From Verrucomicrobiota bacterium (GTDB taxonomy: Bacteria; Verrucomicrobiota; Verrucomicrobiia; Chthoniobacterales; UBA10450): a stretch of 54,884 bases of DNA. The notes below the pieces were generated by a model that was given only the letters and a program-made list of their open reading frames with translations, was not told where the DNA came from and made no database searches. The first letter of the stretch is position 1; each line of letters starts with the position of its first letter. The translations under genes and the position numbers were made by a program. The stretch is taken from assembly GCA_003218475.1 (NCBI GenBank), contig QHNR01000071.1, positions 1 to 54,884 on the forward strand, given 5' to 3'. Shown one piece after another: positions 78 to 48,815 of this stretch.

Positions 78-2306
78 ATGCCGTTTCAGCTCGAATCTAA
101 TTACAGACCGCGTGGAGATCAGGGACAGGCAATCGCCAAGCTGATCAAGTCCGTCGAGGCCGGCAATCGGCATCAGACGCTGCTCGGCGTCACCGGTTCC
201 GGTAAGACTTTCAGCATTGCGAATGTGATCCAGAAGCTCGACCGGCCGACGCTCGTCATTTCGCACAATAAAACGCTCGCCGCGCAACTCTACTCAGAGT
301 TCAAACAATTCTTTCCACGTAACGCGGTCGAATATTTCGTCAGCTACTTCGATTACTATCAGCCGGAAGCTTACATTCCGCGCTCCGATACTTACATCGA
401 GAAGGATTCGTCCATTAACGAGGAGATTGAGCGGTTGCGGCTTGCGGCGACAAGCGCATTGCTTTCGCGCCGCGACACCATCGTGGTCGCAAGCGTTTCC
501 TGTATCTACGGGATTACTTCGCCGGAAGATTACCTACAGATGTTGCTTACCGTAAAACGCGGCCAACACATTTCACGTGAGGCTGTCCTCGGTCGTTTGA
601 TCGACATGCTATATGAGCGCAACGACGTTAATTTCGCGCGCGGACGGTTTCGCGTGCGCGGCGACGTGGTGGAAGTTTACCCGGGCAGCGCGGATGAAGA
701 AGGAATTCGCCTCGAGTTTTTCGGCGACGAAATTGATGCGATCAGGCGGTTCGACCCGTTGACCGGTCACGCGCACGAATCGCTGAATGTCATCACATTT
801 TTTCCGGCAAAACAGTTCGTGACTCCGGCGGACAAACTCAATCGGGCGCTGCGCACCATCCGGGAAGAACTGGAGCAACGGATCGTCGAGCTGGAATCGC
901 AAAACAAACTGCTTGAAGCACAACGCCTGCGGATGCGGACTGAATACGACTTGGAAATGTTGCAGGAAATGGGGTTCTGCAACGGCATCGAGAATTATTC
1001 GCGCCATTTGTCGGGGCGGCCACCTGGATCGAAGCCCTACACGATTATCGACTTTTTCCCCAAGGATCTTCTCGTGGTCATCGATGAATCGCATGCCACG
1101 ATTCCGCAAATCGGCGGGATGTACGAAGGCGATCGTTCGCGCAAGACCGTGCTCGTAAATTATGGGTTTCGTCTCCCGAGCGCGCTCGATAATCGTCCGC
1201 TTAATTTCGATGAGTTCATGAAGATGACGAACCAGATGATCTACGTGAGCGCGACGCCGGCGGAATTTGAAATTCAAAACAGCGTCGTTGGAAACAAAGG
1301 ATACATCCCACATCGGCGGCAGCGGATTGGAGAAGAAGAGCTTGTGCCGTTCGTATTGCCGGGCGGCAAACGCCCAACGTCCAACGTCCAACGTCCAACG
1401 TCCAATTCAGAAACCCACGTTTCGCGCACGGATGAGCCGCCGGAAAAATTCGATGCCCACACGCCGGGTGCGCCGCTCATTGTTGAACAGATCATTCGTC
1501 CTACCGGGCTTCTCGATCCAAAAATTACGTTGAAACCGCTTAAGAATCAGATCGACGAAACGATTGAGCTCTGCCGTCAACGTGTGGAAAAAGGGGAGCG
1601 GATTCTCGTGACGACACTCACGAAGCGAACGGCGGAAGATCTTGCCGATTATCTCCGCGATGTCGGATTAAAAGTGCGCTACCTGCATAGCGACATCGAT
1701 GCGATCGAGCGAGTTGAAATTTTGCGCGGATTACGCGCGGCGGATTTCGATATCCTCGTCGGGATCAATTTGCTTCGGGAAGGCCTCGATCTTCCCGAGG
1801 TTTCGCTCGTCTGCATTTTGGACGCGGACAAGGAAGGATTTTTACGAAGCCAGACTTCACTGATCCAGACGGCAGGCCGCGCAGCGCGTCATGTAAATGG
1901 AGAAGTGGTGCTCTTCGCGGATGTCGTCACGCAAAGCATGGAAGCGCTCATGTCGATTTCCGAATACCGGCGCGCCAAGCAGATGGATTACAACGAGAAA
2001 CACGGAATCACGCCGCAAACGGTACGGCGCGCCGTGCAGGAGAGCCTGCACACAATTTTGCGCGGACGCGAAATCGAATCATCCGTGATCAGCGAAGCTG
2101 GCGGCAATTTCGATCTGACAGAGCTGCTTCGCGAGCTTGAGGAGGAAATGCAACACGCTTCGGCGAACCTGGAGTTCGAGCGCGCCGCGCTTTTACGCGA
2201 CCAGATTATGGAAGTGAAAAGCGGCGCCGGAATTTCGAAAATCGAGCCGAAGCGAAGGCCGGTGAGATACACGCGCAACGCCGGTCGTCGGCGCTCCCGT
2301 GTGTAA
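78..2306 (+). CDS. uvrB: Excinuclease ABC subunit B with a repeat-derived insertion
   Basis: UvrB is the damage-verifying, helicase-like subunit of cytoplasmic nucleotide excision repair and works with UvrA and UvrC. ATG 78 is chosen because [15 protein letters not shown] is the usual family opening; the in-frame GTG at 63 adds only five atypical residues. Visible: Walker A GVTGSGKT (37-44), the beta-hairpin region with [14 protein letters not shown] (about 336), SATP (391), [13 protein letters not shown] and a C-terminal UVR motif ([12 protein letters not shown]). The protein is 742 residues against about 670 normally. The excess lies between SATP (391) and RPTGLLDP (474), a step of about 20 residues in E. 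coli UvrB and 83 here. Part of the insert is encoded by a CCAACGT tandem repeat. All core motifs are intact, so the protein is probably active. Identification is secure. Confidence 0.97.
1374..1408 (+). repeat. Heptanucleotide tandem repeat (CCAACGT) inside uvrB
   Basis: Four perfect CCAACGT units followed by a degenerate fifth (CCAATTC). Because seven is not a multiple of three, successive units are read in different frames and give the peptide [14 protein letters not shown] at about residues 433-446. A related tandem (CAACGCT/CAACGTT units) lies between genes near 10912-10955. Confidence 0.9.
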
Positions 2307-2315
2307 GAACGAACT

Positions 2316-2458
2316 CTGGGGAGCACAGGCTACCAGCCTGTCGTCGTCGGCAGCTTGCCGACGACTCCCGCGCGGTAGAAAAACGTAACGTAAAGAACGT
2401 TCGATGAGCTTTTCGGCAGGCTGCCGAAAAGGACAGGCTAGCAGCCTGTGCTCCCCAG
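2316..2458. repeat. Long palindromic intergenic element (nested inverted repeats)
   Basis: The outer arms begin CTGGGGAGCACAGGCT and end AGCCTGTGCTCCCCAG, forming a long imperfect inverted repeat. Two further hairpins sit inside (TCGGCAGCTTGCCGA and CTTTTCGGCAGGCTGCCGAAAAG). It fills nearly all of the gap between uvrB and holA. It looks like a composite REP/MITE-like element without a coding region; it could also act as a transcription stop by structure alone, since no T-run follows. Confidence 0.85.
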
Positions 2459-2503
2459 CCCATGCTTACGCAACACAACTTGTAATCCGCTGTTTAGGGT
2501 GCG

Positions 2504-3763
2504 ATGAAACCAGCGATGCCGAAAGCAAAAACAAGATCGGCAACCGCAAACATCTACGCGGTCGTCGGCTCGGATGAAGCGGAAGTAAAACGCGTGGCCA
2601 CTGAGCTGGCGACCAACCTGACGCCAGCGGGCGCAGGCGACTTTGGATTGGAAGTGATCGATGGCGCGGCAGATAACGCCGAGCAGGCCGCCGCCCGGAT
2701 TCGATCAGCAATCGAGGCGGTGCAAACCTTACCGTTTTTCGGCAGCACAAAAGTAGTTTGGTTGAAAAACGCGAATTTTCTCGGCGACGATCCAAAGGCG
2801 CGCTCAGCGGCAGTTCAGTCTGCGCTCGAAGAATTATCGGAACTGCTCGACGGCGGTTTCGATTTTGGGATTACGTTTTTAATCAGCGCCACCGACGTGG
2901 ATAAGCGGCGTGGATTTTACAAAATGCTGGTCAAACGCGCAGAGCTGCAGGTTTTTGATCGGCTCGACTCGGGCCGCGCCGGTTGGGAAGAAGAAGCAAC
3001 TGAAATCGTTCGACTGCGCGCGAAGAAACAAAAACTCGAATTTGACGATGACGCGCTGGGTCTTTTCGTGTTGCTAACGGGCGGCGATACGCGCCAGATC
3101 GAGAACGAGCTGGAGAAGATCGACATTTATTGTAGTGCAGGCGTTAAGCCTGTGGAGCCAGCGGGCGTGTCGCCTGTTGAACCCAAACCAGCGCGCTCGC
3201 CACGGCGAGTCCGTCCTGTGGCGGACAAGACGCCCGACGGCTCTACCGCCAGGATGGTTGTGCCACGAATCACTGTCGATCTCGTTCGCGAGTTGGTACC
3301 GCTGTCGCGTGCAGGCATCATTTTCGAATTGAGCAACGCGCTGGCGCTGCGTGATCTAGAGCTCGCGCTTACGCTTGTTCGCCGCTTATTGGATCAGGGC
3401 GAAAAAGCCATCGGCATTTTGTTGGTAGCGATCGTGCCGACGGTCCGCAATCTGTTGCTCGCAAAAGATTTGATGGATCGTCATCGTCTGCCGCGCCCGC
3501 ATTCGCCGTTTCAATTCGTCTCCGCGATCAATCGTCTGCCCGAAAGAGCAACCGAACATTTGCCACGCAAAAAAGATGGCTCGATTAACGCCTATGCGCT
3601 GGGAATCGCAGCGCAGCACGCGCATCACTTCGAGATTAACCAACTAATTAACGCTATGCGGGCGTGTCTGACCGCCAATGTTCAATTGGTTACCACCCAA
3701 CTCGATCACGAACTGATTTTGACTGAGGTCGTCGTGAAGTTGCTTCAAAGGCCGTCATCCTGA
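2504..3763 (+). CDS. holA: DNA polymerase III delta subunit with a repeat-derived insertion
   Basis: HolA is the clamp-loader subunit that opens the sliding clamp. The sequence shows the delta-family course: an N-terminal domain with EVKRVATELA, a central region with WLKNANFLGDD and FLISATDVDKRRGFYK, the TGGDTRQIENELEKI motif, and a C-terminal helical domain (LVRRLLDQGEKAIGILL). At 419 residues it is longer than the usual 330-350. The excess, about residues 210-253, lies between the linker DIY and RITVDLV and is encoded by a repeat element that also occurs between genes. The last codons TCA TCC TGA belong to a second dispersed repeat, which therefore supplies the stop codon. ATG 2513 is an alternative start. 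Confidence 0.9.
   Translation: MKPAMPKAKTRSATANIYAVVGSDEAEVKRVATELATNLTPAGAGDFGLEVIDGAADNAEQAAARIRSAIEAVQTLPFFGSTKVVWLKNANFLGDDPKARSAAVQSALEELSELLDGGFDFGITFLISATDVDKRRGFYKMLVKRAELQVFDRLDSGRAGWEEEATEIVRLRAKKQKLEFDDDALGLFVLLTGGDTRQIENELEKIDIYCSAGVKPVEPAGVSPVEPKPARSPRRVRPVADKTPDGSTARMVVPRITVDLVRELVPLSRAGIIFELSNALALRDLELALTLVRRLLDQGEKAIGILLVAIVPTVRNLLLAKDLMDRHRLPRPHSPFQFVSAINRLPERATEHLPRKKDGSINAYALGIAAQHAHHFEINQLINAMRACLTANVQLVTTQLDHELILTEVVVKLLQRPSS
3131..3262. repeat. In-frame palindromic repeat inside holA
   Basis: Begins TGTAGTGCAGGC and ends near GGCTCTACCGCC, the TGTAG...CTAC ends typical of the intergenic palindromes in this window. Its segment CGAGTCCGTCC-GTGGCGGACA matches the intergenic repeat downstream of the gene ending at 22749. 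It is translated as a Pro/Val/Arg-rich linker. Confidence 0.8.
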
Positions 3764-3853: not shown

Positions 3854-3858
3854 AGGAA

Positions 3859-5107: not shown

Positions 5108-6172
5108 GTGCAAATTCGTTGCGGTGTCGATCGCTGTCCTGTGCTGATCGGCGCGAGTTTGCTTGACCAGCTCGGGACGCACGCGCACAAATATTTGCCT
5201 CGCGAGACATGCGCGGTCATTTCCGATAGCAATGTCGCGCGGCTCTTCGCCGATCGGGTGAAGAAGAGCCTGGCGTCAGCCGGATTTCGCCCGACGCTTA
5301 TTACGATTCCGGCCGGCGAGAGATCCAAAACGCTTCAGCAAGCCGGCGCGATTTGCGATCAGATGATCGCGGCGGGGCTTGACCGTCACTCGTTTGTCGT
5401 TGGGCTCGGTGGCGGGATGATTGGGGATCTTTCGGGCTTCGTGGCGGCGATTTATCATCGCGGCATTCCGCATGTCCAGATTCCAACCACGCTGCTGGCA
5501 ATGGTGGACAGCTCGATTGGCGGGAAAACCGGAATGGACACGCGCGCGGGGAAAAATTTGATCGGCGTGTTCCATCAGCCGTCGCTCGTGATTGATGATC
5601 TCGATGTTTTGAAAACGCTGCCGCGGCGCCAATTCAATCAAGGTTTCGCAGAGATCATTAAGCACGCGATTATCGCAGACGCCAAGATGTTCGGCACGCT
5701 TCAACACTGGAAGGCAGCCGATGCGGCTGCCCTACAGCGGCTGATCCAGCGCAATATCAAGATCAAAGCAAAAATCGCGACGAGAGATGAGCGCGACCAG
5801 ACTGGCGAGCGTGCCCTTCTGAATTTTGGTCACACGATTGGTCACGCGATCGAGCGCGCGGGAGACTTCAAGCAATTTCTCCACGGAGAAGCGTTGAGTC
5901 TTGGAATTGTCGCTGCGTGCGCGATCTCCACGGACAAGGCTGGGCTGCCGGCAGACCAGCACGATGCGATCGTTGATCTTCTCGAAAAATTCAAGTTGCC
6001 GATCAAATTGCCGAAGAATTTTCCGCGCCAAAAGATCGTTGAAGCATTGAAGTTCGACAAAAAATTCGAAGGCGGAAAAGTGCGGTTTGTTGTGACCCCG
6101 CGGATCGGTGCGGCGCACGTAACCGAGGACGTAACGTTCGACGATATTCACGAGGTGATTGCACAACTGTAG
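5108..6172 (+). CDS. aroB: 3-dehydroquinate synthase
   Basis: Converts DAHP to 3-dehydroquinate in the shikimate pathway, using NAD and a divalent metal. Motifs: VVGLGGGMIGDLSGFVAA, PTTLLAMVDSSIGGKTGMD, KNLIGVFHQP, a metal ligand Glu in FAEIIKHA, and the His ligands in LLNFGHTIGHAIE and FLHGEAL. GTG 5108 is chosen because VQIRCGVDRCPVLIG is a normal opening; an earlier TTG at 5075 would overlap the pseudopilin. Length is 354 residues, normal. The stop TAG is part of the palindromic element that begins at 6168. The segment WKAADAAALQRL is encoded by a small palindrome (GGCAGCCGATGCGGCTGCC), possibly repeat-derived. Confidence 0.95.
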   Translation: MQIRCGVDRCPVLIGASLLDQLGTHAHKYLPRETCAVISDSNVARLFADRVKKSLASAGFRPTLITIPAGERSKTLQQAGAICDQMIAAGLDRHSFVVGLGGGMIGDLSGFVAAIYHRGIPHVQIPTTLLAMVDSSIGGKTGMDTRAGKNLIGVFHQPSLVIDDLDVLKTLPRRQFNQGFAEIIKHAIIADAKMFGTLQHWKAADAAALQRLIQRNIKIKAKIATRDERDQTGERALLNFGHTIGHAIERAGDFKQFLHGEALSLGIVAACAISTDKAGLPADQHDAIVDLLEKFKLPIKLPKNFPRQKIVEALKFDKKFEGGKVRFVVTPRIGAAHVTEDVTFDDIHEVIAQL

Positions 6173-6218
6173 CCGGAGTCGGTGACTCCGGCGGCCGGAT
6201 CACCGATCCCGGCTACAG
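6168..6218. repeat. TGTAGCCGG palindromic element shared by two convergent gene ends
   Basis: TGTAGCCGGAGTCGGTGACT ... GGATCACCGATCCCGGCTACAG: inverted ends with two inner hairpins. The aroB stop codon (TAG 6170-6172) and the last codons and stop of the convergent amidase (TGA at 6202-6200) both lie inside it. Related copies are at 32484-32559, 35550-35577 and within the RNase D gene. Confidence 0.88.
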
Positions 6219-7501
6219 CGCGCTTTGGAATAGTAATCAATCAGTCCATCCACCACGCTATCGGCGTATTCGCGGAAGATACTCTTGCGCTCTGTGCCGT
6301 TGACGTTGCGCGTTCCTTCGTAATCGCCAGCCTGAATGCGAGCAAATGCATCCTTGCTATTCATGACGTACGGCTCGCAGTAGACCACGGGACAGCGATA
6401 AATCCGCGTGGCCAGCAAATTGCGGGCATACACGTAACCGCTGCTGCCGACTTTGGTCGTGCTGTTCGTGGTTGGATATTCGTATGGCGGCAAGCTAGTC
6501 TCGCCCGCCATTGCCGCGGCAATTGTGTCCGCCAGCGGCAATTCTTCGTCGTACGCACGGCTGAGAAGCCGTCGAATCATTTCAAAACGTTCGTCATCAA
6601 ATTCGAGCTCCTCCGCCAGGTAAGATCCGTTCACAAGCAGATGAAAATGATTCGCGTCCGTCAGGGTCGGGCTGTTTGGATCGCCCCAGCCTTCAGCGTT
6701 TAAATGCAGACAAAGCACAAGGTCGGGATGTAATTTGAAGTTAACCAGCGCCGCGCGGCGACGAATCTCGCTGTAGCGATAGAACAAAATTTCGCTTTGC
6801 CAGCGAATCGTTTGCTCTTTTTCCGGATCATTCGGATCAAGAACGTCAGCGCGCGGCTGTGGCACGCCGTTCTTGATCAGAATTTTTCTGGCGAGTTCAC
6901 GAAAGTCATCCGGCCGTTTAGCCGTAATTGGCTCATTGTTGTTTCGGACAAATGAAACGTTCGCCCCGAGTTGACGCAATCGCAGGCCGAGCAGTCGCGC
7001 CACGCGCAAGGCCAGATCGCCTTCCTGAACCGGTTGGCTGTCGCCGAACTGAAACCAACGCTCCTCCATCTTTGCCCACGTCCCACCGAGATGCCCCGGA
7101 TCGAGCGCGACTTTTAAGCCAGAAAGAGGTTTGCCCGGGCGTGCTGCCGGCAAAGATTTCGCTGGCCGCCAAAGTCGCGGCACAGGCTTGCGCTCGGTGT
7201 CGTTCGCCGCAAATCGGAGCGTGAAGAATTCCTGCGCGCTGCGATTCATCATGAGCCGGGCAGACTTCTCGTTTATTTCGATTAAATCGGGTGCAAACCC
7301 ATGAGTGCAGTAAATGCTTTGGATTACTCGGGCGAAGTCGTCGCGCGTGATTGTTTCTTGATAGTGGTCCAGCACGCTCCATCGCGGTTTGCTGCCGAGG
7401 ACGCTGATGTTGTCGGCGGCTTGAAGAGCCGGGAGGAAGATCAGGAGCAGAAATGACGAATGATGAATGAGCGAATGAAGAACTAATGACAAATGACGCA
7501 T
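6200..7501 (-). CDS. N-acetylmuramoyl-L-alanine amidase (Amidase_3 family), exported
   Basis: A zinc amidase expected to cleave the amide between MurNAc and the stem peptide of peptidoglycan in the periplasm. It has KVALDPGHLGG (first zinc His), a Glu-containing segment EGDLALRVARLL, and the second His in LVLCLHLNAEGWG, with a long N-terminal region before the catalytic domain. ATG at 7501 is preferred because it gives a signal peptide (MRHLSLVLHSL, then FLLLIFLPALQA); an in-frame start at 7627 would add 42 residues without a signal. The signal-peptide codons consist of the dispersed ATGACGAATG-type repeat read in reverse. The last residues (CSRDR) come from the shared palindrome. Confidence 0.85.
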   Translation of the reverse strand: MRHLSLVLHSLIHHSSFLLLIFLPALQAADNISVLGSKPRWSVLDHYQETITRDDFARVIQSIYCTHGFAPDLIEINEKSARLMMNRSAQEFFTLRFAANDTERKPVPRLWRPAKSLPAARPGKPLSGLKVALDPGHLGGTWAKMEERWFQFGDSQPVQEGDLALRVARLLGLRLRQLGANVSFVRNNNEPITAKRPDDFRELARKILIKNGVPQPRADVLDPNDPEKEQTIRWQSEILFYRYSEIRRRAALVNFKLHPDLVLCLHLNAEGWGDPNSPTLTDANHFHLLVNGSYLAEELEFDDERFEMIRRLLSRAYDEELPLADTIAAAMAGETSLPPYEYPTTNSTTKVGSSGYVYARNLLATRIYRCPVVYCEPYVMNSKDAFARIQAGDYEGTRNVNGTERKSIFREYADSVVDGLIDYYSKARCSRDR

Positions 7502-10843: not shown

Positions 10844-10867
10844 GGTCTGGATTGGACGTTTTGGGAG

Positions 10868-10965
10868 TTGGGCGTCGGACGATGGGCGTTTGCTGTATTG
10901 TAAACTAACTTTCGACGCTCAACGCTCAACGTTCAACGCCCAACGCTCAATGATCCGAGTGCAGC
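10868..10965. repeat. Intergenic heptamer-type repeat (GCTCAACGCTCAACG)
   Basis: CGACGCTCAACGCTCAACGT followed by CAACGCCCAACGCTCAA, preceded by the reverse-oriented GTTGGGCGTCGGACG. It is the same motif type as the CCAACGT array inside uvrB. It fills the gap between the DsbA-like and rhomboid genes. Confidence 0.7.
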
Positions 10966-18382: not shown

Positions 18383-20065
18383 TTAGTTCGGCGGTTTGGA
18401 AACCGTTGTTCCTTGTTTGGGCGTAAACGCGCCGTTGCCTTCGTCGAGATAAATTGTCGAGCCGACGCGGGAGATTCGAAGTGATTGTCGCCAGCCTCCC
18501 GTTGGAAAATTTCTTGTCGCTTCGACCGTTTTCGTCTCCGGCTTTAACGCCGGCACATCGATGTCAGTCATCGCTTCGGACAAAACCCTGCCATCCAATT
18601 GTTGTGGCAGTGTGATCCCGAGAATCCGCAGGATTGTCGGGGCGAGATCGACATTTCCGGTTGGTAAATCGTCCACTTCACCGCGTGGATAATCCGGGCC
18701 AGCGACGATCAATATGTTGTGCATATCGAATCGGCTGAGAGTGGCGTGTGTCCCCTTCCCCGCTGCTCGTTGCCAGTCCGCGTCAATCATTCCCGGAAAG
18801 CCGAATTGGTTTTGCGAGTCGTTCCAGCGGAACGCCATCACGACATCAGGCGCATGGTCATTGCTTGCCGCGCCGTAGCCTGACGAAGGCGGGTGAATCA
18901 TCGCTTGCTCGAGGCCGAACGTTCCTTGCAGCGGCTTTCGAGTGAAAATAACTCCGGCAAAATCTGATTGCTGCAAAAATTCAATCAGACGGCGCGTCAG
19001 CGTCTCGTCGTGTCCGATGACATAAAAAAGAACGCTCCCGCCGTTCCCAGCCAGAATGATTTCTCCAGGTTTCGGCTCGTCGGTGAATTCGGTCTTCGCG
19101 CCGAAACCGGCGTCGTTCAAAATTTTTCGCAAATCGATCGAGCGCCTGATCGTGGAAAAGCCATGATCGGAGACGACAAATAGATCTGTTGTTTCACGTG
19201 CTTTTTGTCGGTCCAACGCCGATAGAACGGCCGCGAGGTTTTCATCGGCGGACTTGATCGCAGTAAGCGCCGGCGGCGCTCCCGGCGCGGACTCGTGCTG
19301 TGTAAGATCAGGTTCGCCTAACCAAAGAATCGAAAGAGCCGGCACACCACCTTTCCAAAGAAAATCGGTCATCACTTTCGTTGTCCAGGCGTCCTGTTGC
19401 ACATGGCCGGATGGAAACGGACCCAGCACGTCGGTGATCGGAGCTATTGCATCGCCCGAAAACGATTTGCCTGCGAACAGCGTGACGCTGTTTCTTACGT
19501 AGGCTTGCAAATGTAGCGCATGCGTCCCGCTTGCATCGTCTGCGGAAAGCAAGCCAGAGGCATGCCCTACACTGCGATCCAGCAACAGACCGACAGTCTT
19601 TGCTGACGCGATTACCGTGCGTCCGCCTGCGCGCTGGACGAGTTCGACGATGGTTGAAAGGGAAACATATTTTCCACCGGAGAGTTCATCTCCTCTCTTC
19701 ACCACCGCTGGATTCTCGACATCGATTGCGTGGCGAGAATCGATGTCCGGGCGGTACACATGGTTCGCGATGATCCCGTTCCTTCCGGGATAAACACCAG
19801 TAATGAGCGCCGTTCCGTTCACCATCGTCGCGCTGGGATAGACGGAATGATGATTGCGAAAAGTGACTCCCTCATGCGCAAGCTTCCACAGCGTGGGCGT
19901 GTTTTGTGCGCTCACGAAATCCGGTCGCATCCCGTCCCAGACGACGACCACAACATGCCGCGATTCATTCGATATCTCCCCCGCGGACGCAACCACGGAA
20001 AGTCCGCACGTCATCGCGAACACAAGCGGCAAGCGCAACCTCGGCGCGATATGGCGAACTTGCAC
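18383..20065 (-). CDS. Alkaline-phosphatase-superfamily phosphodiesterase/nucleotide pyrophosphatase, exported
   Basis: 560 residues with a signal peptide (cleavage probably near VVASAGE). Features of type I phosphodiesterase/NPP enzymes: VVVVVWDGMRPDF (metal Asp), the nucleophile Thr in YPSATMVNGTALITG, WLGEPDLTQHESAPG (Asp and His ligands), FVVSDHGFS (Asp-His pair), and GTHATLSRFDMHNILIVAGP near the C-terminal end. It should hydrolyse phosphodiester or pyrophosphate bonds outside the cytoplasm; the substrate cannot be predicted. It begins one base after the stop of the upstream transporter gene, so the two are probably cotranscribed. Confidence 0.87.
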   Translation of the reverse strand: MQVRHIAPRLRLPLVFAMTCGLSVVASAGEISNESRHVVVVVWDGMRPDFVSAQNTPTLWKLAHEGVTFRNHHSVYPSATMVNGTALITGVYPGRNGIIANHVYRPDIDSRHAIDVENPAVVKRGDELSGGKYVSLSTIVELVQRAGGRTVIASAKTVGLLLDRSVGHASGLLSADDASGTHALHLQAYVRNSVTLFAGKSFSGDAIAPITDVLGPFPSGHVQQDAWTTKVMTDFLWKGGVPALSILWLGEPDLTQHESAPGAPPALTAIKSADENLAAVLSALDRQKARETTDLFVVSDHGFSTIRRSIDLRKILNDAGFGAKTEFTDEPKPGEIILAGNGGSVLFYVIGHDETLTRRLIEFLQQSDFAGVIFTRKPLQGTFGLEQAMIHPPSSGYGAASNDHAPDVVMAFRWNDSQNQFGFPGMIDADWQRAAGKGTHATLSRFDMHNILIVAGPDYPRGEVDDLPTGNVDLAPTILRILGITLPQQLDGRVLSEAMTDIDVPALKPETKTVEATRNFPTGGWRQSLRISRVGSTIYLDEGNGAFTPKQGTTVSKPPN

Positions 20066-25107: not shown

Positions 25108-26457
25108 GTGTCTAAATTCATACTGATTGGCAGCGGTCTCGCAGGTGGTTTGCTCGCTGCGTATTTGGGCCGGCGCGGATACGATGTCGATCTCTACGAG
25201 CGACGCGCTGATCCGCGCGAAGGCAACATTGTCGGCGGGCGTTCGATCAATCTGGCGATTTCAACGCGGGGCATTCATGCGCTCGAACAGATTGGGATCG
25301 CTGATGAAGCATTGCAACACGCCATCCCGATGCGCGGCCGGATGATTCACGATAGATCCGGCGCATTACATTTCAGTCCGTACGATGTCGATCCGAAAAA
25401 CTGTATCAACTCAATCGGACGCGGCGCGCTCAACACGACCGTTATCGAAGCTGCGCAGCGATATCCAAACGTGCGCGTCTACTTCAATCACAAATGCACC
25501 GACGTCGATCTCGACTCTGCGACCGCCCATTTGGAGAGAACCGATCGCGCTGTAGAGGCCGCTGTCTCAGCGGCAAATCCAAAGATCATCCCCGCACACG
25601 GTGACGCAGTGATCGGCGTCGATGGCGCGTTCTCCGCTGTGAGACAATCGATGCAGATGCAGATCAATCGCTTCGAGTACGACGAGAGTTATCTAGCGCA
25701 TGGCTACAAAGAATTGACGATCCCGCCTGCGCCGGATGGCTCGTGGCAAATGGAAAAGAACGCGCTCCACATCTGGCCGCGCAAAAGTTTCATGATGATC
25801 GCGCTGCCAAATCCTGACGGGTCATTCACCTGCACATTGTTTTGGGAGTTCGAAGGGCCGCGGAGTTTTGCCACTACAAAAACCGATGGCGGCGTTCGCC
25901 GATTTTTTGATGAGGAATTTCCCGACGCGGTGCCGCTCATGCCAACATTGCTCGAAGATTTTCGCCAAAATCCAACGGGATCACTGGTAACCATCCGGTG
26001 TGCACCATGGTATTACAAAGACAAGGTCACGCTGGTCGGCGACGCCGCGCACGCGGTCGTGCCGTTTTATGGGCAGGGGATGAACGCTGCCTTCGAAGAT
26101 TGCGTTGTGCTAGACGAATGCCTCGAAGAATTTCCAGACAATCGCGAGCGCGCCTTCGGCGAATACTTTTCCCGCCGGAAAGTAAACGCCGACGCTCTTG
26201 CCGATCTTGCGATCGGAAATTTCATTGAGATGCGCGACAAAACCGCGTCGAAAACATTCCGGGCAAAGAAAAAACTCGATCACTTCCTTGAAGCGGTGCT
26301 ACCCGGAATTTATCTGCCGCTCTACACAATGGTCACGTTCACGCGAATTCCATACGCAACCGCCGCCAAACGCGCTCGAACTCAGGATGCGATCGTTTAC
26401 ACGGCGCTGATTGCAATCGTTTTAATCATCGCGCTGTTGATCTTCCACTTCGTCTGA
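25108..26457 (+). CDS. kmo: Kynurenine 3-monooxygenase
   Basis: FAD- and NADPH-dependent hydroxylation of L-kynurenine to 3-hydroxykynurenine. 449 residues starting at GTG 25108. FAD-binding GSGLAGGLLAAYLGRRGYDV at the N terminus, ERRADPREGNIVGGRSINLAIS (family-specific), VIGVDGAFSAVR and the second FAD motif LVGDAAHAVVPFYGQGMNAAFEDC. A hydrophobic C-terminal helix (residues 430-449) probably anchors it to the membrane, as in other KMOs. Around residues 148-158, extra sequence AVEAAVSAANP is encoded by TGTAGAGGCCGCTGTCTCAG, like the palindrome at 31070, suggesting a small repeat insertion. First gene of a kynurenine-pathway region. Confidence 0.94.
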   Translation: MSKFILIGSGLAGGLLAAYLGRRGYDVDLYERRADPREGNIVGGRSINLAISTRGIHALEQIGIADEALQHAIPMRGRMIHDRSGALHFSPYDVDPKNCINSIGRGALNTTVIEAAQRYPNVRVYFNHKCTDVDLDSATAHLERTDRAVEAAVSAANPKIIPAHGDAVIGVDGAFSAVRQSMQMQINRFEYDESYLAHGYKELTIPPAPDGSWQMEKNALHIWPRKSFMMIALPNPDGSFTCTLFWEFEGPRSFATTKTDGGVRRFFDEEFPDAVPLMPTLLEDFRQNPTGSLVTIRCAPWYYKDKVTLVGDAAHAVVPFYGQGMNAAFEDCVVLDECLEEFPDNRERAFGEYFSRRKVNADALADLAIGNFIEMRDKTASKTFRAKKKLDHFLEAVLPGIYLPLYTMVTFTRIPYATAAKRARTQDAIVYTALIAIVLIIALLIFHFV

Positions 26458-27752: not shown

Positions 27753-29039
27753 ATGCCTCATACAGCTTGCGAGGTGCCTGTAACGCAAACCAAAGCACCA
27801 TCCATATTTCGCAAAACGGCTGAAAGTTTTGAGCCTGGGGCAAAGTCACTGCCGCAACGGTACTTCATCTCGCCGGAGGTCTTCGCGCAGGAGCAAGAGA
27901 GAATTTTCTCGAGGCAATGGGTGTTGGTGGGACATCAGAGCGCAATCGCTCAACCCGGGGATTACTTTATCTCGGAGGTCGCCAACGAAAGCTTGATCGT
28001 TGTCCGCGGTAAACGCGGAGAGATCCGTGGGTTTTACAACGTGTGCCGGCACCGCGGAAGTCGACTCATCGAAAACAGAAACGGACAGTTGTCCGCTGCG
28101 ATTCAGTGTCCATATCACGCATGGACGTACGCACTCGACGGACGCTTGCTCGGAGCGCCACACATGGATGATGTCCCCGACTTTAATAAGGCCAGTTATT
28201 CATTGCATCCGGTGAACGTCGAAATTTGGGAAGGGTTTGTTTTTGTGAATCTGAATGGGGAGGAGGCCCGCCTTCGCTCAGAAGCTACTGCGCGGCAACG
28301 TTCAGGAGATTTCATCTCCCTGGAACGTTGGTTCGCGCCATTGGCCGGAAAATTTTCGCGCTGGAAGTCGCCGACGCTTCGCTCAGCGAAACGGATTGAG
28401 TATGATGTGCGAGCCAACTGGAAGTTGATCTTTGAGAATTATTCGGAGTGTTATCACTGCCTGGGAGTGCATCCAGAGCTTTCGAAAATCTCACCGTATG
28501 ATTCGGCGGAGAATGATCTGACCGAAGGACCGTTCCTCGGTGGATTTATGCGGATCGCCAAAGGCCGGAGCCTGACCATGAGCGGGAACGCGTGCGCGCT
28601 GGGAATCGCAGATGCCAGTCGTGTTCGTGATCGTGCTCCTGCTCATAATCGAAACCCGTCGCAAAAAATCGAGGACGATTACGATCACGAGCATGAACAC
28701 GATGGGAAGAATCGAGTGTTTTACTACTCGATCTTTCCGAACATGCTGCTGAGTTTGCATCCCGACTACGTAATGGTGCATCAACTTCAGCCTCAGTCGC
28801 CGGAGCAGACGCTGATCTTGTGCGATTGGTTTTTCCACCCGGAGGCATTCAAGCACAGCGATTTCGATCCGGACGACGCCATTGAGTTTTGGGACATGGT
28901 AAACAGGCAAGACTGGCACGTGTGCGAATTGAGCCAGCAAGGCATTGCCTCACGTGCGTATCAGCCGGGACCGTATTCGTCACGGGAGTCGATTCCCGCA
29001 GCGTGGGATGAATATTACCTGCGGCGGATGAAAACTTAG
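27753..29039 (+). CDS. Rieske non-haem iron oxygenase alpha subunit with a repeat-derived insertion
   Basis: 428 residues, similar in layout to the glycine-betaine/aromatic-ring oxygenase group. Rieske [2Fe-2S] ligands: C98-x-H100 (VCRHRGS) and C119-x2-H122 (QCPYHAW). Mononuclear iron site: H235 and H240 in ENYSECYHCLGVHPE, with an Asp probably in EFWDMVNRQDWH. No reductase or ferredoxin gene is adjacent. Residues about 290-317 (SRVRDRAPAHNRN ... DDYDHEHEHDGKN) interrupt a normally short loop and are encoded by an inverted repeat also present at 42555-42650. Location between kmo and tryptophan 2,3-dioxygenase suggests a role in tryptophan or anthranilate-type metabolism; the substrate is unknown. 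Confidence 0.88.
   Translation: MPHTACEVPVTQTKAPSIFRKTAESFEPGAKSLPQRYFISPEVFAQEQERIFSRQWVLVGHQSAIAQPGDYFISEVANESLIVVRGKRGEIRGFYNVCRHRGSRLIENRNGQLSAAIQCPYHAWTYALDGRLLGAPHMDDVPDFNKASYSLHPVNVEIWEGFVFVNLNGEEARLRSEATARQRSGDFISLERWFAPLAGKFSRWKSPTLRSAKRIEYDVRANWKLIFENYSECYHCLGVHPELSKISPYDSAENDLTEGPFLGGFMRIAKGRSLTMSGNACALGIADASRVRDRAPAHNRNPSQKIEDDYDHEHEHDGKNRVFYYSIFPNMLLSLHPDYVMVHQLQPQSPEQTLILCDWFFHPEAFKHSDFDPDDAIEFWDMVNRQDWHVCELSQQGIASRAYQPGPYSSRESIPAAWDEYYLRRMKT
28617..28704. repeat. In-frame inverted repeat inside the Rieske oxygenase
   Basis: Left arm TCGTGTTCGTGATCGTGCTC ... ATAATCGAA; right arm ACGATTACGATCACGAGCAT ... GAACACGA. The same arm sequences form the intergenic element at 42555-42650. 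The right arm encodes the His/Glu/Asp stretch DYDHEHEHD. Confidence 0.88.
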
Positions 29040-32403: not shown

Positions 32404-32483
32404 CCGCTGCACGTCGGACCGGCAACGTTGTACTAATCGACAGCGTGTAAGCGGGTGCGGGGCGGTCAGAAAATCGTTTGAGT

Positions 32484-32559
32484 TGTAGCCGGCATCGGTG
32501 ATGCCGGCATGCAAACAGCGCCTCTGCGTCGGCCGGGATCACCGATCCCGGCTACAGCG
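32484..32559. repeat. TGTAGCCGGCATCGGTGATG...CCGGCTACAG palindromic element
   Basis: Both halves are themselves hairpins (CCGGCATCGGTGATGCCGG and CCGGGATCACCGATCCCGG), flanked by TGTAG and CTACAG. It matches the segment inside the RNase D gene (36501-36576) and that at 6168-6218. Confidence 0.9.
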
Positions 32560-35581: not shown

Positions 35582-36868
35582 TCATGCTGTCACTCCCAGC
35601 AATTCGCGTTGCCATGGAACCAGCAACGACGCTGCTCGTGCCTGGTCTGTTGCGATCGCCTCCAGCGTGTGACGGGGCGCGATGAAGGATGGCTCCAAGC
35701 CGAGCTCTTCAGCTGATTTGTCGCGCAGCAGCAGCAGCTCCTCCGTGCGCCGGACCGTCTCAGCACTTGGCCGGGTTCCAAAACGCCGAGGCAACACCGG
35801 CCAATCCGATTCAGGCGCCGCCAGTGCGATTCGTGCTGCCTGCCGAAACGCGTGACGTCGCCGAGACGAAAAATGTTTGTAATCGGGTACGCTCCCCGAA
35901 GCGAAACCTACTGCAGCGTCCACAAGCTTTTCGTTCTGCAAGATGTGAAATGGCGGGCGATCGACCATTTCCGCTTCTTTTTCGCGCCATTGCCAGAGGG
36001 CGCGAAGTACTGCCGCTGGCTGCCCCTGAAGCGAGCCAGATCCGCGGATGCGCCAAAATTCATCCTGCTTTCGGACACGCGCCACCGCGGCCTGCTCGAT
36101 CGCGCGCTGACACGATTGCCGCAGCCAATCTCGGCGCTGATGACGATCCAACTCGGCTTCCAACTTTTCGGCAAGTGATAACAGATAACGCACATCGTTA
36201 ATTGCGTATTCCGCCATTCGCGCCGGCAGAGGCCGTTTTGCCCAATCCGCTTTTTGTGAACCCTTCGGCAATTCCACGCCAAAATAGCGTTTCACGAGCG
36301 CAGCCAGACTGAACTCGCGAACACCCAGGAGCCGAGCTGCAATCATCGTGTCGAAGATCCTCTGCGCGGTGAAGTTCAAGCCGCGCCGCAGCATTCGTAA
36401 ATCGTAATCGCCGCCGTGCAGGACAATTTCTCTATCTTCGAGCGCGCGGCGTAGTGGCTGCAGGTCGAGATGAGCCAGCGGATCGACAATCACGTCGTGT
36501 TGTAGCCGGGATCGTTGATCCTGGGTGCCGGAGCCAGTTTCCACATCCGGGCCGGCATCATCGATACCGGCTACAGTTGGCACACTGATCTGGAGCAGAC
36601 AAAGTTTCTCCCGATACGAATGCAGGCTGTCTGCCTCAATGTCGATCGCGACACGACCTGCCGCGTCAATCTTTGCGAGCAACGCAGTCAACTGAACATC
36701 GGTCGCAATAAGACGCGATCGTAATGACGAACGACCAATGACCAGGCTCGAAGGAGTGACCCGCCTTCGCGCAGCTACGGCGTGGCCAGCGAAATCCGAA
36801 GGGCGATGAGGTTGCTTCAAGAGCTGCTTCGTCATTTTCGGATGTGGGTTTCTCTCATCATTCGTCAT
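35582..36868 (-). CDS. rnd: Ribonuclease D (DnaQ-like exonuclease + HRDC) with a repeat-derived insertion
   Basis: 3'-5' exonuclease for tRNA 3'-end maturation. DEDD motifs: VAIDIEADSLHSYREKLCLLQI (first Asp/Glu), IVLHGGDYDLRMLRR and MAEYAINDVRYLLSLAEKLE. HRDC domain at the C terminus (about 245-325; QPAAVLRALWQWREKEA). Residues about 98-123, with IDDAGPDVETGSGTQDQR, separate LQISVPTVAG from VIVDPLAHL; other RNase D proteins join these almost directly. The insert is a TGTAGCCGG palindrome. The first 55 residues are also repeat-derived, and the true start may be near LIATDVQLTALLAKI (about 36715), although no ATG is close. Confidence 0.88.
   Translation of the reverse strand: MTNDERNPHPKMTKQLLKQPHRPSDFAGHAVAARRRVTPSSLVIGRSSLRSRLIATDVQLTALLAKIDAAGRVAIDIEADSLHSYREKLCLLQISVPTVAGIDDAGPDVETGSGTQDQRSRLQHDVIVDPLAHLDLQPLRRALEDREIVLHGGDYDLRMLRRGLNFTAQRIFDTMIAARLLGVREFSLAALVKRYFGVELPKGSQKADWAKRPLPARMAEYAINDVRYLLSLAEKLEAELDRHQRRDWLRQSCQRAIEQAAVARVRKQDEFWRIRGSGSLQGQPAAVLRALWQWREKEAEMVDRPPFHILQNEKLVDAAVGFASGSVPDYKHFSSRRRHAFRQAARIALAAPESDWPVLPRRFGTRPSAETVRRTEELLLLRDKSAEELGLEPSFIAPRHTLEAIATDQARAASLLVPWQRELLGVTA
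36501..36576. repeat. In-frame TGTAGCCGG palindrome inside rnd
   Basis: TGTAGCCGGGATCGTTGATC ... GCCGGCATCATCGATACCGG then CTACAG. Same ends and same hairpin design as the intergenic copies at 32484-32559 and 6168-6218. Confidence 0.9.
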
Positions 36869-36892: not shown

Positions 36893-38284
36893 TCATTTCA
36901 GGCCGCTGAGCAACAATTCGGCGTTCGTCTTCGTCAGGTGTAGATTGTCGATCAGTTTTTCCATCGCCTCGAGAGGCGGAAGCGCTGCCATCGTTTTGCG
37001 GAGCATCAGCACGCGTTCCCATTCATCGGGATGATAAAGCAACTCCTCGCGTCTCGTAGCCGAGAGTAGCGGATGGATCGCCGGATAGAGCCGCTTCTCC
37101 TGCAACGCGCGATCGAGATGCAGCTCCATGTTGCCGGTGCCTTTGAATTCTTCGAATATCAATTCGTCCATTCGGCTGCCAGTTTCTGTTAAAGCAGTCG
37201 CGAGCACGGTCAGACTGCCGCCTTCTTCGGCATTTCGGGCCGACCCGAAGAATTTCTTCGGCTTAATGAGTGCCTTCGCTTCGACGCCGCCGGACATGAT
37301 TCGGCCTCTGCCCGGCTCCAGATTATTGTATCCGCGTGAGAGCCGCGTGAGGCTGTCGAGCAAGACCACCACGTCGCGTTTTAGTTCCACCAGGCGTTTC
37401 GCGCGTTCCAGCACCATCTCGGCTACCTGCACATGTCGTTGCACGCTTTCGTCAAAGTTCGAATGATAAATCTGGCAATCAATTTCCCGCTCCAGATCCG
37501 TAACTTCTTCCGGGCGCTCGTCTACTAGAAGCAGGATGAGCACAATCTCCGGATGATTTACGCGAATGGCTTTTGCGATTTCCTTGAGCAGGATTGTCTT
37601 GCCAACCCGCGGCGGCGCGACGATAAGGCCGCGTTGTCCGCGCCCAAGCGGCGTCAACAAGTCCACCGCCCGCGCGCTGATGGAGTTCGTCTTGGAGTTT
37701 TCCAGAATAATCCTGCCCTGTGGAAATTGCGGCGTGAGCTTGTCAAAGTGCGTCGGTTGCGTCCACTCCTCGACGGATTGGCCTTCGAGACTTGTGACCG
37801 TGTCAAGCGACAGAAACTTCTCACGCTGCGCTGGTAATCGAACTGTTCCGTCAATCTTTTGGCCAGGGCGCAACTTATATTGTTCAATAAGGGCGCGCGG
37901 AACGGCTACGTCCTCGGGGAGAGGCAAAAAATTGAATTTTGGCCAGCGCAATATGGCAAAGGAGTCGCTGACCTGATCCAGGAAACCTTCTGCAGTGACA
38001 GTTGCGCCGTCGCCGCTTAACGTTGTGCGGACAATATCGAGGATGTGCTGATGGCGAGAGCGCGCGGGATGCAAAAACAAATCCAAATCACGCGCCAACG
38101 CTTTTAGTTTTTTTTCCGAAAACTCTTGCAGCTCATTTAGATCAAGCGAGCGAACGGTTGTAGCGGCGGCTGTGCTAGCCGCCTCGTCAGCGGGCGATCC
38201 CCTTTCGCCAGACTTTGGCGTGGCGCGCACGCCTGCCTCCGAAGTTTCCGTCTGCGGAATCGATACCTCTACCTTTTCGTCCAT
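36893..38284 (-). CDS. rho: Transcription termination factor Rho
   Basis: RNA-dependent hexameric ATPase. 463 residues from ATG 38284 (MDEKVEVSIPQTE); a TTG 15 bases upstream is less likely. N-terminal helix pair LNELQEFSEKKLKALARDL, RNA-binding CSD with FLDQVSDSFAILRW, ATPase with Walker A APPRVGKT, LLLVDERPEEVTD, VVVLLDSLTRLSRGYN and the Q/R-loop segments (GTGNMELHLDRAL). The start overlaps the end of coaE by 16 bases. Residues 16-43 (EAGVRATPKSGERGSP ... STAAATTV) are encoded by a repeat, in a region where Rho proteins vary. Confidence 0.97.
   Translation of the reverse strand: MDEKVEVSIPQTETSEAGVRATPKSGERGSPADEAASTAAATTVRSLDLNELQEFSEKKLKALARDLDLFLHPARSRHQHILDIVRTTLSGDGATVTAEGFLDQVSDSFAILRWPKFNFLPLPEDVAVPRALIEQYKLRPGQKIDGTVRLPAQREKFLSLDTVTSLEGQSVEEWTQPTHFDKLTPQFPQGRIILENSKTNSISARAVDLLTPLGRGQRGLIVAPPRVGKTILLKEIAKAIRVNHPEIVLILLLVDERPEEVTDLEREIDCQIYHSNFDESVQRHVQVAEMVLERAKRLVELKRDVVVLLDSLTRLSRGYNNLEPGRGRIMSGGVEAKALIKPKKFFGSARNAEEGGSLTVLATALTETGSRMDELIFEEFKGTGNMELHLDRALQEKRLYPAIHPLLSATRREELLYHPDEWERVLMLRKTMAALPPLEAMEKLIDNLHLTKTNAELLLSGLK
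38158..38239. repeat. In-frame repeat inside rho
   Basis: TGTAGCGGCGGCTGTGCTAG followed by CCGCCTCGTCAGCGGGCGAT, then TTTCGCCAG and TTTGGCGTGGC. The TTCGCCAG...GGCGTGGC part matches the repeat inside nadE and that at 36765-36795. Confidence 0.8.
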
Positions 38285-42554: not shown

Positions 42555-42650
42555 TCGGGTTCTTGTTCTTATTCCTGCTCATGCTCGTGCTCTTGCTCGT
42601 AATCGAACGACAATCCATCAAGCACGATCACGAGCATGAGCACGAAAAGC
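42555..42650. repeat. Intergenic inverted repeat, same family as the Rieske insert
   Basis: Left arm TTCTTGTTCTTATTCCTGCT ... GCTCGTAATCGAACGA; right arm AAGCACGATCACGAGCATGA ... GCACGAAAAGC. The arms match the inverted repeat inside the Rieske oxygenase gene. It abuts the start of the next gene. Confidence 0.88.
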
Positions 42651-45655: not shown

Positions 45656-45663
45656 ACGATTTT

Positions 45664-47083: not shown

Positions 47084-47132
47084 GCTGAGGCTTGCCGCCG
47101 GCGATCTTGCACTTAATCTGCCTTAACGCAGC

Positions 47133-48815
47133 ATGAAGATTGGTTTTGCTCAAATTAACGCGACCGTAGGAGATTTAAGCGGTAATTGTGAGCTGATCAT
47201 CGGCGCTTATGAGCGACTCGCTGCCGCCGGCGCCGAATTGGTGCTGACTCCGGAGCTGGCGATCACGGGATATCCGCCACAGGATTTGGTTTTTAAGTCG
47301 CGCTTTGTTTCGGAAAATCTCGCGATCCTGGAGAAACTGCACGCTCGCGTCGGAGACGCGGCGTTGCTGGTCGGATTTGTTGATCGCAACGAGGGGCGCG
47401 GCAAACCGTTTCGGAACGCGGCGGCTTTGCTCGAGCGGGGCAAACCGATCCGTAAGGCGTACAAGTCCCTTCTGCCGACCTACGATGTTTTCGATGAAGA
47501 TCGCTATTTCGAGCCGGCACGCTACGTCGAGCCTTTTGAAGTTCACGGCAAAAAAATCGGCGTAACTATATGTGAGGACATTTGGACGGAACATTACCTG
47601 CCGCGACCGTTCTACGATGTCGAACCGGTGCAGAGTCTCGTGAATCAAGGCGCGGAGATCATCGTGAATCTAAGCTCCTCGCCGTTTAGTCTGCATAAAC
47701 CGGCGATCCGTTATGAGATGGTGGCGGGACTCGCACGAGCTCATCAACGGCCAATTTGCTACTGCAATTTGGTCGGCGGTAACGATCAACTGGTGTTCGA
47801 TGGCAATTCGTTTGCCGTGAGTTCTGCGGGCAAATTGATCGCGCGACTCGCCGCCTTTCGCGAAGACGAGAAAATTGTCGATACCGATTCGACCGCGACG
47901 ATTGAATTTCGGGAAGGCAAAGCGGCTGAGGAACTCTTTGCCGCGCTTTCGCTGGGTGTTCGCGACTATTTTAGAAAGTGTAATTTTCATTCTGCCGTCG
48001 TCGGCCTCAGCGGCGGAGTCGATTCTGCGGTCACGGCCGTCATCGCGGTCGACGCACTGGGAGCAGAAAACGTCACCGGCATTTCCATGCCAAGTCCCTA
48101 CTCGTCGCGCGGGAGCATCGACGACGCGCGGGCGCTTGCGCGCAATCTGGGAATTAAATTCCTCGAAATTCCGATCACCGAAGCGTTCAGGGATTTCAAA
48201 TCACAGTTCAAAGAAATCTTCAAAGGACTCCAAGAAAACGAAACGGAGGAAAATATGCAGCCGCGCCTGCGCGCGATGACGTTGATGGCGCTCTCGAACA
48301 AGTTCGGTCACCTCGTTCTTAGCACTGGAAACAAGAGCGAACTCGCTGTCGGCTATTGCACGATTTATGGCGACATGGCGGGCGGCCTGGCAGTGATCAG
48401 CGATGTTCCGAAAACGATGGTTTACGACCTGGCGCGCTGGATCAATTCCGACTATGCAGCGCGAATCGGCCGGAAGGGCGACCCCCCTTCGCCAGGTTCC
48501 GGCGTGGCAGGAATCATTCCAAAATTGACAATTGAAAAAGCGCCTAGCGCGGAGTTGAAGCCGGACCAGAAAGACCAGGACACCTTGCCGCCGTACGAAA
48601 TTCTGGATCAGATCCTGCAGCTTTACGTCGAAGAAAACTTGAGCGCGCGCGACATCATCGCCCGGGGATTTGACGAAAAAACTGTTCGCTGGGTGCAGCG
48701 CCGCGTTGATCTCAACGAATACAAGCGCGAACAAGCCGCGCCCGGATTGAAGGTCACCAGCCGCGCTTTCGGCATTGGCCGCAAGATGCCTATCGCGCAA
48801 AAATACGTCGATTAA
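47133..48815 (+). CDS. nadE: Glutamine-dependent NAD+ synthetase with a repeat-derived insertion
   Basis: Last step of NAD synthesis, amidating nicotinate adenine dinucleotide. 560 residues. The N-terminal glutaminase (nitrilase type) has its triad at E41 (LTPELAITGYPP), K111 (YKSLLPTYDVFDE) and C147 (VTICEDIW). The C-terminal synthetase has the PP-loop VVGLSGGVDSAVTA and SSRGSIDDARALARNLG, LALSNKFGHLVLSTGNKSELAVGY, and KAPSAELKPDQKDQDTLPPYE. Residues about 447-460 (KGDPPSPGSGVAG) are extra: relatives run IGRDGEIIPKLTIE. The extra codons match the repeat inside rho. The stop is 12 bp before a tRNA remnant. Confidence 0.95.
   Translation: MKIGFAQINATVGDLSGNCELIIGAYERLAAAGAELVLTPELAITGYPPQDLVFKSRFVSENLAILEKLHARVGDAALLVGFVDRNEGRGKPFRNAAALLERGKPIRKAYKSLLPTYDVFDEDRYFEPARYVEPFEVHGKKIGVTICEDIWTEHYLPRPFYDVEPVQSLVNQGAEIIVNLSSSPFSLHKPAIRYEMVAGLARAHQRPICYCNLVGGNDQLVFDGNSFAVSSAGKLIARLAAFREDEKIVDTDSTATIEFREGKAAEELFAALSLGVRDYFRKCNFHSAVVGLSGGVDSAVTAVIAVDALGAENVTGISMPSPYSSRGSIDDARALARNLGIKFLEIPITEAFRDFKSQFKEIFKGLQENETEENMQPRLRAMTLMALSNKFGHLVLSTGNKSELAVGYCTIYGDMAGGLAVISDVPKTMVYDLARWINSDYAARIGRKGDPPSPGSGVAGIIPKLTIEKAPSAELKPDQKDQDTLPPYEILDQILQLYVEENLSARDIIARGFDEKTVRWVQRRVDLNEYKREQAAPGLKVTSRAFGIGRKMPIAQKYVD
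48472..48511. repeat. In-frame repeat inside nadE
   Basis: GGAAGGGCGACCCCCCTTCG then CCAGGTTCCGGCGTGGCAGG, about 40 bases. The TTCGCCAG...GGCGTGGC core matches the repeat inside rho and the one near the rnd start. Confidence 0.8.

Follow-up and report, generated by a model that had tools for sequence, protein, structure and literature searches.

Short palindromic repeats lying in frame within protein-coding genes have been described in several bacteria. In-frame repetitive extragenic palindromes (REPs) of the GTAG and CGTC types were published by Di Nocera et al. 2013 (PMC3733652); the available part of that paper places them in uvr, rec, polymerase, and tRNA-modification genes, with most of the GTAG intragenic cases in the verrucomicrobium Opitutus terrae and with a REP at about the same site in two Xanthomonas recB genes, and already proposes tolerance of loops and linkers as one reason for such positions. 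The same text describes the Rickettsia palindromic elements in frame in many genes, including uvrB, and classes two Rickettsia families as CGTC-tagged and without a dedicated transposase. Among the REP-associated tyrosine transposases (RAYTs, or TnpA-REP), one published subclass has REPs within the transposase gene (PMC6006769, as far as its accessible text goes). Here, we describe in-frame repeats in a 54,884-nt stretch of DNA (the window; GenBank QHNR01000071.1) from a metagenome-assembled genome (MAG) of a Verrucomicrobiota bacterium (order Chthoniobacterales), together with a RAYT clade whose members lie inside host proteins of this and related genomes.

Like the published REPs, the window carries GTAG-tagged hairpins and hairpin dimers in frame in repair and other genes, and its inserts are new members of that kind, to which heptamer palindromes and turnover between species add detail. 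Unlike in the cases in the available part of PMC3733652, single loops are traced here through 14-20 related genomes, where families are exchanged and frames shift; heptamer palindromes also take part, and entire RAYT units lie in frame. Palindromic in-frame DNA is shared with the Rickettsia elements, which are, according to the same partial source, CGTC-tagged and without a transposase, whereas the elements here are tagged GTAG or GGAG and accompanied by RAYTs. The initial annotation of this DNA had taken the Rickettsia elements for the only well-known parallel, a view that is too narrow given the in-frame GTAG REPs published in many taxa, with their peak in O. terrae (PMC3733652).

From the sequence comparisons, we consider it quite probable that the extra segments are mostly REP-type mobile hairpins and heptamer palindromes, which entered conserved genes in frame, at permissive sites, and were tolerated there, and that one RAYT clade became embedded likewise. 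Several REP families would take part, probably each with a RAYT of its own to move it. The elements are open in most reading frames, and a frame-keeping insertion would merely add a flexible peptide; frame-breaking insertions would mostly be lost, and in a loop that once held a repeat, later repeats would replace it or join it.

The window is contig C34 of the MAG (own genome, G000; 3.16 Mb, 195 contigs, 83% complete). Comparison genomes are coded from G001 upward and loci from L001 upward, 18 congeners entered most comparisons, and the evidence throughout is sequence, mostly from MAGs. The nearest named relatives by UvrB are the Verrucomicrobia MAGs AV95 (96%) and AV56 (88%). A soil habitat is likely because the scaffold names of both include depths in cm; the group is probably uncultured and soil-living.

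We compared nine regions, chosen from the initial annotation and from alignments, with 284 kb of sequence of the own genome, using 400 random coding pieces as the control. Repeat matches were found for 8/9 regions at E ≤ 0.005 (random pieces, 20/400), for 7/9 at E ≤ 1e-3 (12/400), and for 5/9 at E ≤ 1e-4 (1/400). Chance low-complexity loops are excluded by this control as the source of the inserts. The initial annotation had reported extra segments in uvrB, holA, a Rieske oxygenase gene, rnd, rho, and nadE, with kmo as a likely seventh. The congener alignments bear this out, with species-variable segments in 7/7 of these genes (six internal, that of rho N-terminal), and a phosphodiesterase gene adds an eighth case (aa 396-402; a single congener aligned). 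The segments had been said to sit where relatives are contiguous, which holds for holA, kmo, and the second Rieske segment but not for nadE, rnd, and uvrB, whose loops vary in congeners, nor for the terminal tail of rho. The claim of a repeat match in every case stands for the 7/9 regions at E ≤ 1e-3 and fails for the first Rieske segment (aa 173-187), which had no match in the 284 kb. Reading frames are open in the window as described, but the uvrB frame changes at the loop insert in the relatives G010 (L029/L147), G008 (L030/L157), and G012 (L031/L041), through error or real loss; such changes are expected if insertion ignores the frame. Finally, several families do occur in frame in one genome, but they are less unrelated than proposed, as rnd, kmo, holA, and rho share one kind of GTAG-tagged REP hairpin.

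The clearest additions are those of holA (40 extra residues, aa 215-254, missing in 6/6 aligned congeners) and kmo (12 extra residues, aa 151-162, missing in 4/4). The second Rieske segment (aa 290-319, 26 extra residues) is not present as such in 16/16 covering rows among 17 congener rows, and the G003 orthologue has a shorter acidic/His stretch at this place. In rnd, the variable segment spans about aa 98-127, besides an own-only N-terminal stretch at aa 27-36. This rnd segment, nadE 451-460, and the UvrB loop differ in length and content among congeners, and related segments are also present in some of them (nadE of G004, rnd of G014). The variation in rho is confined to the N-terminal tail ahead of the Rho model start at aa 53, and the word insert fits it loosely. 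Across the alignments, the insert peptides change freely between species. As a separate observation, the nadE orthologue of G002 (L080/L092) is split with an inverted stretch, and that of G004 (L077) changes frame near residue 80-96. The features of the window are listed in Table 1.

Table 1. Repeat elements of the window and genes that hold them (window positions)
Feature	Position	Strand	Evidence
uvrB, host of heptamer array	78..2306	+	Orthologue alignment, PDB UvrB matches, Pfam
In-frame heptamer element in uvrB, AAACG(NNCAACG)n..CCAATTCAGA, encoding 15 residues	1366..1411	+	Repeat match, predicted local distance difference test (pLDDT)
Intergenic inverted GGAG-REP pair, GGGAGCACAGGCT..CCAGCCTGT, in uvrB-holA spacer	2316..2458	.	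Family shared with REPs beside the RAYT inside RecG (L008)
holA (DNA polymerase III delta), host	2504..3763	+	NCBIfam TIGR01128, two stretches
Own-only in-frame REP cluster in holA, aa 215-254	3131..3265	+	Congener alignment, repeat match
Intergenic TGTAGCCGG REP pair	6164..6222	.	Sequence of the window
Intergenic heptamer palindrome, two inverted arms	10861..10950	.	Pattern search, reading by eye
GCCTTCGCC..GGCGTGGC family repeat inside phosphodiesterase gene (18383-20065)	18863..18899	-	Alignment, repeat match
TGTAG-tagged REP in kmo, own-only aa 151-162	25551..25573	+	Family similar to REPs flanking RAYT L010
84-nt palindrome of TCGTGATCGTGCTC family, in frame in Rieske oxygenase gene (27753-29039)	28619..28702	+	Alignment, repeat match
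Intergenic TGTAGCCGG REP pair	32482..32556	.	Pattern search
TGTAGCCGG REP pair in rnd (35582-36868), encoding VAGIDDAGP..QRSRLQ	36499..36575	-	Alignment, pattern search, translation
Second repeat in rnd, N-terminal region (AGHAVAARRR), family as in nadE and phosphodiesterase gene	36754..36790	-	Alignment, repeat match
TGTAG hairpin and TTCGCCAG..GGCGTGGC unit in variable N-terminal tail of rho (36893-38299)	38159..38224	-	Alignment, repeat match, Rho model
Intergenic relative of Rieske palindrome	42572..42646	.	Repeat match
TTCGCCAG..GGCGTGGC unit in nadE (47133-48815), aa 451-460	48476..48511	+	Alignment, repeat match

Hairpins were counted on both strands of a 254-kb sample of the own genome and in three shuffles, giving 284 against 142-174. 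The most over-represented hairpin feet were TGTA and then GTAG (that is, TGTAG), with GTAG at 15 against 1.6 expected; GGAG, an accepted REP foot, was also enriched (11 against 2.9), and CGTC was not among the 12 over-represented tags listed for this sample. Enriched GTAG and GGAG feet are typical marks of REPs. The own genome has 11 Y1-transposase matches. In an NCBIfam scan covering L001-L008, L010, and L011, L006, L010, and L011 scored above the cut-off of the REP-associated tyrosine transposase, L005, L007, and L008 matched below it, and L001-L004 passed the IS200 cut-off. RAYT L010 is flanked by a family similar to the kmo repeat, and L007 has the holA repeat family on both sides, both flanking elements being matched by holA 3195-3230. 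Beside RAYT L008 lies the family to which the large inverted repeat of the uvrB-holA spacer belongs; in the 254-kb sample, this family had no copies of the exact pattern, and allowing up to 4 substitutions gave two, both of them the window pair. For the TGTAGCCGG family, only similar flanks were found, at L011. As read from these genomes, the elements lie in frame and are repeats, and three of the families are paired with a RAYT.

The CCAACGT arrays are, as read by eye, half-palindromic heptamers with an AAACG start, several NNCAACG units, and a CCAATTCAGA-like turn, followed by a second, inverted arm in about 8 of the 19 sites shown. Over the whole genome, the heptamer pattern gave 111 overlapping matches with up to two mismatches, and the reversed pattern gave 1. 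Clear gene-internal arrays were found in rimO, uvrB, thiC, and ispG among 18 strict sites, and at least two further sites are N-terminal and ambiguous. Seven-base tandem units are also the mark of the cyanobacterial heptameric repeats, and heptamer repeats are reportedly present in Xanthomonas and Nostoc; here, the units form palindrome arms, some of them in frame in genes.

Different repeats occupy the same loop in related species. In the UvrB loop of 14 genomes, the own included, heptamers were present in 5, a tagged hairpin in 6, and either of them in 10, while among random 90-mers of the window heptamers occurred in 1.2% and tagged hairpins in 3.8%. The uvrB heptamers are retained in the nearest named relative; of the sister species, G007 has a GTAG hairpin and G008 has heptamers together with a GGAG hairpin. 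In RimO, heptamers were found in the own genome and three congeners and tagged hairpins in three, with further REP-like stretches recognized by eye. The UvrD loop, read by eye in 20 genomes, holds a REP pair in the own genome and nine congeners, a short form in three, and is empty in seven. With labels assigned by eye and odd loops taken as states of their own, the concatenated species tree requires at least 7 label switches for uvrB, at least 5 for rimO, and at least 7 for uvrD. On this evidence, related species differ in the repeat families of their UvrB and RimO loops. The UvrB loop itself is older: it measures 52-84 residues between two motifs in many Verrucomicrobia, and 16-17 in others and in Firmicutes.

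Such turnover might come from gene conversion or recombination between REP copies instead of new transposition, an account that we regard as possible, if somewhat doubtful. The orthologous REPs at the UvrD site differ between species by whole-stem subtype (by eye), as conversion would produce, and one RecG site, described below, is common to guests of different RAYT sublineages. However, repeat-free UvrD sites exist, and for any family to enter a gene for the first time, insertion would still be required.

The placement of the TGTAGCCGG family bears on whether genes are sought out. The strict pattern has 25 matches in the own genome (reversed control, 0), of which 24 were counted, L165 being dropped as a likely coding coincidence. 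In 13/24 cases, the REP lies in frame inside a long open reading frame (ORF) of a known family. The hosts are an MFS transporter, a YfhO-like protein (weak match), FtsK (a pair), rnd, UvrD/PcrA, a PLP decarboxylase (a pair), a mannosyltransferase-like protein, PurL, MiaA, TreS, and the E1-beta/E2 junction of a fused pyruvate dehydrogenase. At this last locus (L173:377-3025, G000:C103), the REP pair may have merged two genes into one frame. A typical repeat is open forward in one frame (VAGIGDPG) and in reverse in three (AGITDPGY, PGSPIPAT, and GRDHRSRLQ), and all four are exemplified among the translations. A search for the pattern gave 2-27 matches in each of 24/24 congeners and few (0-5) in 14 genomes from other families of the order. 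With 13/24 copies in genes, these REPs depart from the mainly extragenic REP habit; they are REP-like by structure, not by location.

The initial annotation had proposed a mechanism that creates new protein segments. A dedicated mechanism of this kind, aimed at genes in frame, could draw on the loops of UvrB, RimO, UvrD, and RecG, which hold different families in different species, and on the sense of the heptamers, as all four clear gene-internal arrays run in the CAACG sense. Yet an in-gene share of 0.56 is expected if every frame-keeping, stop-free insertion survives (with 0.85 of the window coding and 0.68 of frames open), and the observed 13/24 is close to it, which points to neither targeting nor avoidance of genes; this neutral outcome is what the annotation itself had set against its proposal. 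No in-gene excess was found as a sign of targeting. The sense bias, likewise, fits stop codons, as five test heptamer strings are open in all frames in the sense direction in 5/5 cases and in antisense in 2/5, and the arrays in the four genes do not keep one frame (the ispG array lies in another, and heptamers cycle through frames). Frameshifting inserts exist as well, the insert peptides vary freely among species, and the prediction at the UvrB insert is of low confidence, as for a disordered loop (model from 19 sequences, mean pLDDT 73.5; below 50 at aa 427-447, which is the insert, and at three other longer stretches). We therefore judge dedicated targeting improbable, and a segment-creating mechanism is not needed. 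As for the suggestion that inserts are tolerated for landing in loops, the sites in UvrB, RecG, and AlaS do look permissive: in solved relatives, the residues on either side are neighbours or fewer than 20 positions apart (residue 404 in solved UvrB), and the sites are probably loops.

A whole RAYT is embedded in the same manner in RecG. In the own genome (L008:3-2960, G000:C157), one 986-residue frame comprises both RecG halves and a complete RAYT, which scores 72.9 bits against REP_Tyr_transpos (NF047646), slightly below the 80-bit cut-off; other guests score above and below it. The RAYT is present at the same place of RecG in 7/18 congeners and in one genome of another family, and one congener gave no RecG match. 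The site corresponds to a position between residues 451 and 469 of T. maritima RecG. Of 10 guest-free congeners, 7 gave a contiguous RecG loop, and inspection by eye showed no REP remnants in these. A short second RecG N-terminal fragment, 96% identical, also lies near a contig end of the own genome (C26:3-371), where strain mixture or contamination is possible.

The guest family occurs in 65/213 genomes of the order, with 83/93 matches in frames of at least 400 aa and 9 in frames below 300. The 76 guest domains are distributed over RecG (42), AlaS (13), MetH site 1 (10), MetH site 2 (5), ThrS (3), CarB (2), and PriA (1). The RecG and MetH labels come from BLAST to host references; NCBIfam labels 12/13 AlaS frames, those of ThrS, CarB, and PriA, one RecG frame, and four MetH frames, and one AlaS was recognized by its junction sequence. 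The sites recur in each host: that of AlaS lies just ahead of the ISGEFAF-like motif (human AlaRS 421-426), and the two of MetH resemble domain junctions. The MetH of G007 (L410) has two RAYT domains in one frame, at the two different sites, the first of them cut by the contig end. In the MetH of G146 (L469), 1613 residues long, the RAYT is surrounded by repeated peptide units that REPs encode.

With the published RAYTs, the guests share the NF047646 domain, the HuH and Y---NP motifs, and flanking inverted REPs (PMC6006769, available text). Among 76 near-complete domains (74 guests and 2 free copies; 2 partial guests omitted), HuH was kept in 74/76 and Y---NP in 73/76. A tagged hairpin lies within 200 nt upstream of the guest in 57/68, an inverted one downstream in 51/68, and both in 45/68 (host-piece control, 18/629). 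Unlike the published RAYTs, and unlike L010, an ordinary RAYT of the own genome that fits between its REPs, the guest clade does not have the start and stop of its own between its REPs that would mark a stand-alone gene. In all 8/8 free copies of the family, the stop lies beyond the 3' REP, and in 7/8 the nearest ATG precedes the 5' REP. Among 69 copies (2 free copies taken in; 7 without a recognized 5' REP motif omitted), ATG is missing between the 5' REP and the RAYT core in 65, and 33 have no ATG, GTG, or TTG there at all. No host enzyme of this kind is described in the available text of PMC6006769. The ratio of nonsynonymous to synonymous substitutions (dN/dS), calculated for 12 of the 42 RecG guests, had a median of 0.126 in the RAYT part (45 of 66 pairs) and 0.064 in the host part (66 pairs).

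Inteins, too, lie in frame in enzymes of replication, repair, and metabolism and keep returning to the same sites, a habit that the RAYT guests share; the REPs, in turn, form hairpins. Both points would suit removal of the inserts before or during protein synthesis, as an intein, an intron, or a ribosomal bypass. Against this, a Pfam scan limited to the RecG host gave no intein (Hint) domain at E ≤ 1e-5 for the RecG guest protein, and the guest frame is kept open with a low dN/dS, which removal would not require. Group I/II introns and IStrons were rejected as the identity of the guests: eight guest loci gave no Rfam intron match, a single rRNA being found in a flank only. Removal thus seems very unlikely; the RAYT guests have no splicing domain found and appear to stay.

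We built a RAYT tree from 93 rows, with 78 domains (76 guests and 2 free copies) after omission of 7 duplicate loci. The guests and the two free copies form one clade, separate from three other RAYTs of the own genome, an outcome that the similarity search favours. The host changes at least 13 times on this tree (least possible, 7). Three changes of the RecG label are unavoidable on the starred branches, and a single gain with two losses could account for them; repeated entry of the RAYT into RecG is likely, not forced. The clade would be the furthest step of the process proposed above, its REP-RAYT-REP unit forming a single frame with no stop and mostly no ATG. This RAYT lineage might even be an obligate in-frame guest, lacking a stop and usually a start of its own, with the transposase made solely as a domain of RecG, AlaS, MetH, ThrS, CarB, or PriA, staying active and spreading to the same permissive loops in other species, in the manner of an intein without splicing; to our mind, this proposal is evenly poised. 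More generally, we infer that the elements are mobile, that RAYTs catalyse their insertion, and that each guest is translated as part of its host, with both partners able to work.

Several points weigh against embedded, REP-derived mobile elements as the explanation. No RAYT was found for three kinds of element (heptamer arrays, Rieske palindrome, and GCCTTCGCC family), and for the TGTAGCCGG family there is only the similar L011. The congeners are too distant for a target-site duplication or a clean empty site to be resolved. Between the 5' REP and the core, GTG or TTG is present in 32/69 copies and ATG in 4/69, so that internal initiation is possible there, and in the eighth free copy (G141), which has no ATG before its 5' REP, the frame shifts close to the end. 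The dS values are near saturation (median pS, the proportion of synonymous differences, 0.72), with 21/66 pairs lacking a finite dS. The RAYT tree is a quick one with many weak forks and a long-branch warning, and the method is blind to gain versus loss. Repeats can be misassembled in MAGs, and three uvrB and two nadE orthologues are broken, through error or real loss. That the whole pattern is an artefact of assembly or binning is scarcely credible, even with incomplete MAGs and those broken orthologues, as host-guest junctions of one kind are found again and again in dozens of genomes, of which some have only about 10-60 contigs (G167, G156, G150, G151, G149, G154, and G169).

For in-frame guest RAYTs, no description was found in the open PMC literature by title or abstract start, nor in the available text of PMC6006769 and PMC4853749; in that of PMC6006769, RecG is named once, in the reference list. 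RAYT guests inside host enzymes thus appear new relative to the literature found. The findings suggest that REP-type elements can be translation-compatible parasites, not confined between genes, and that housekeeping enzymes can harbour their transposase. Such embedded RAYTs would be natural fusions of a single-stranded DNA transposase with a helicase or a tRNA synthetase; the RecG guest, if this is true, puts a single-stranded-DNA-cutting domain on a fork-remodelling helicase. The guests also mark places that tolerate about 200 or more additional residues, and they give direct access to the question of how protein length comes to vary. For annotation, a stretch coded by a REP or a RAYT in such a protein may be genuine reading frame and not error.

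Two further observations concern the remainder of the window. At 7440-7730, the upstream end of an amidase ORF enters TTCGTCATTCG arrays, and its real start is probably further inside. Downstream of nadE, the region 48893-54317 contains an integrase-like gene and a series of unrelated ORFs, and by eye it resembles an integrated element.

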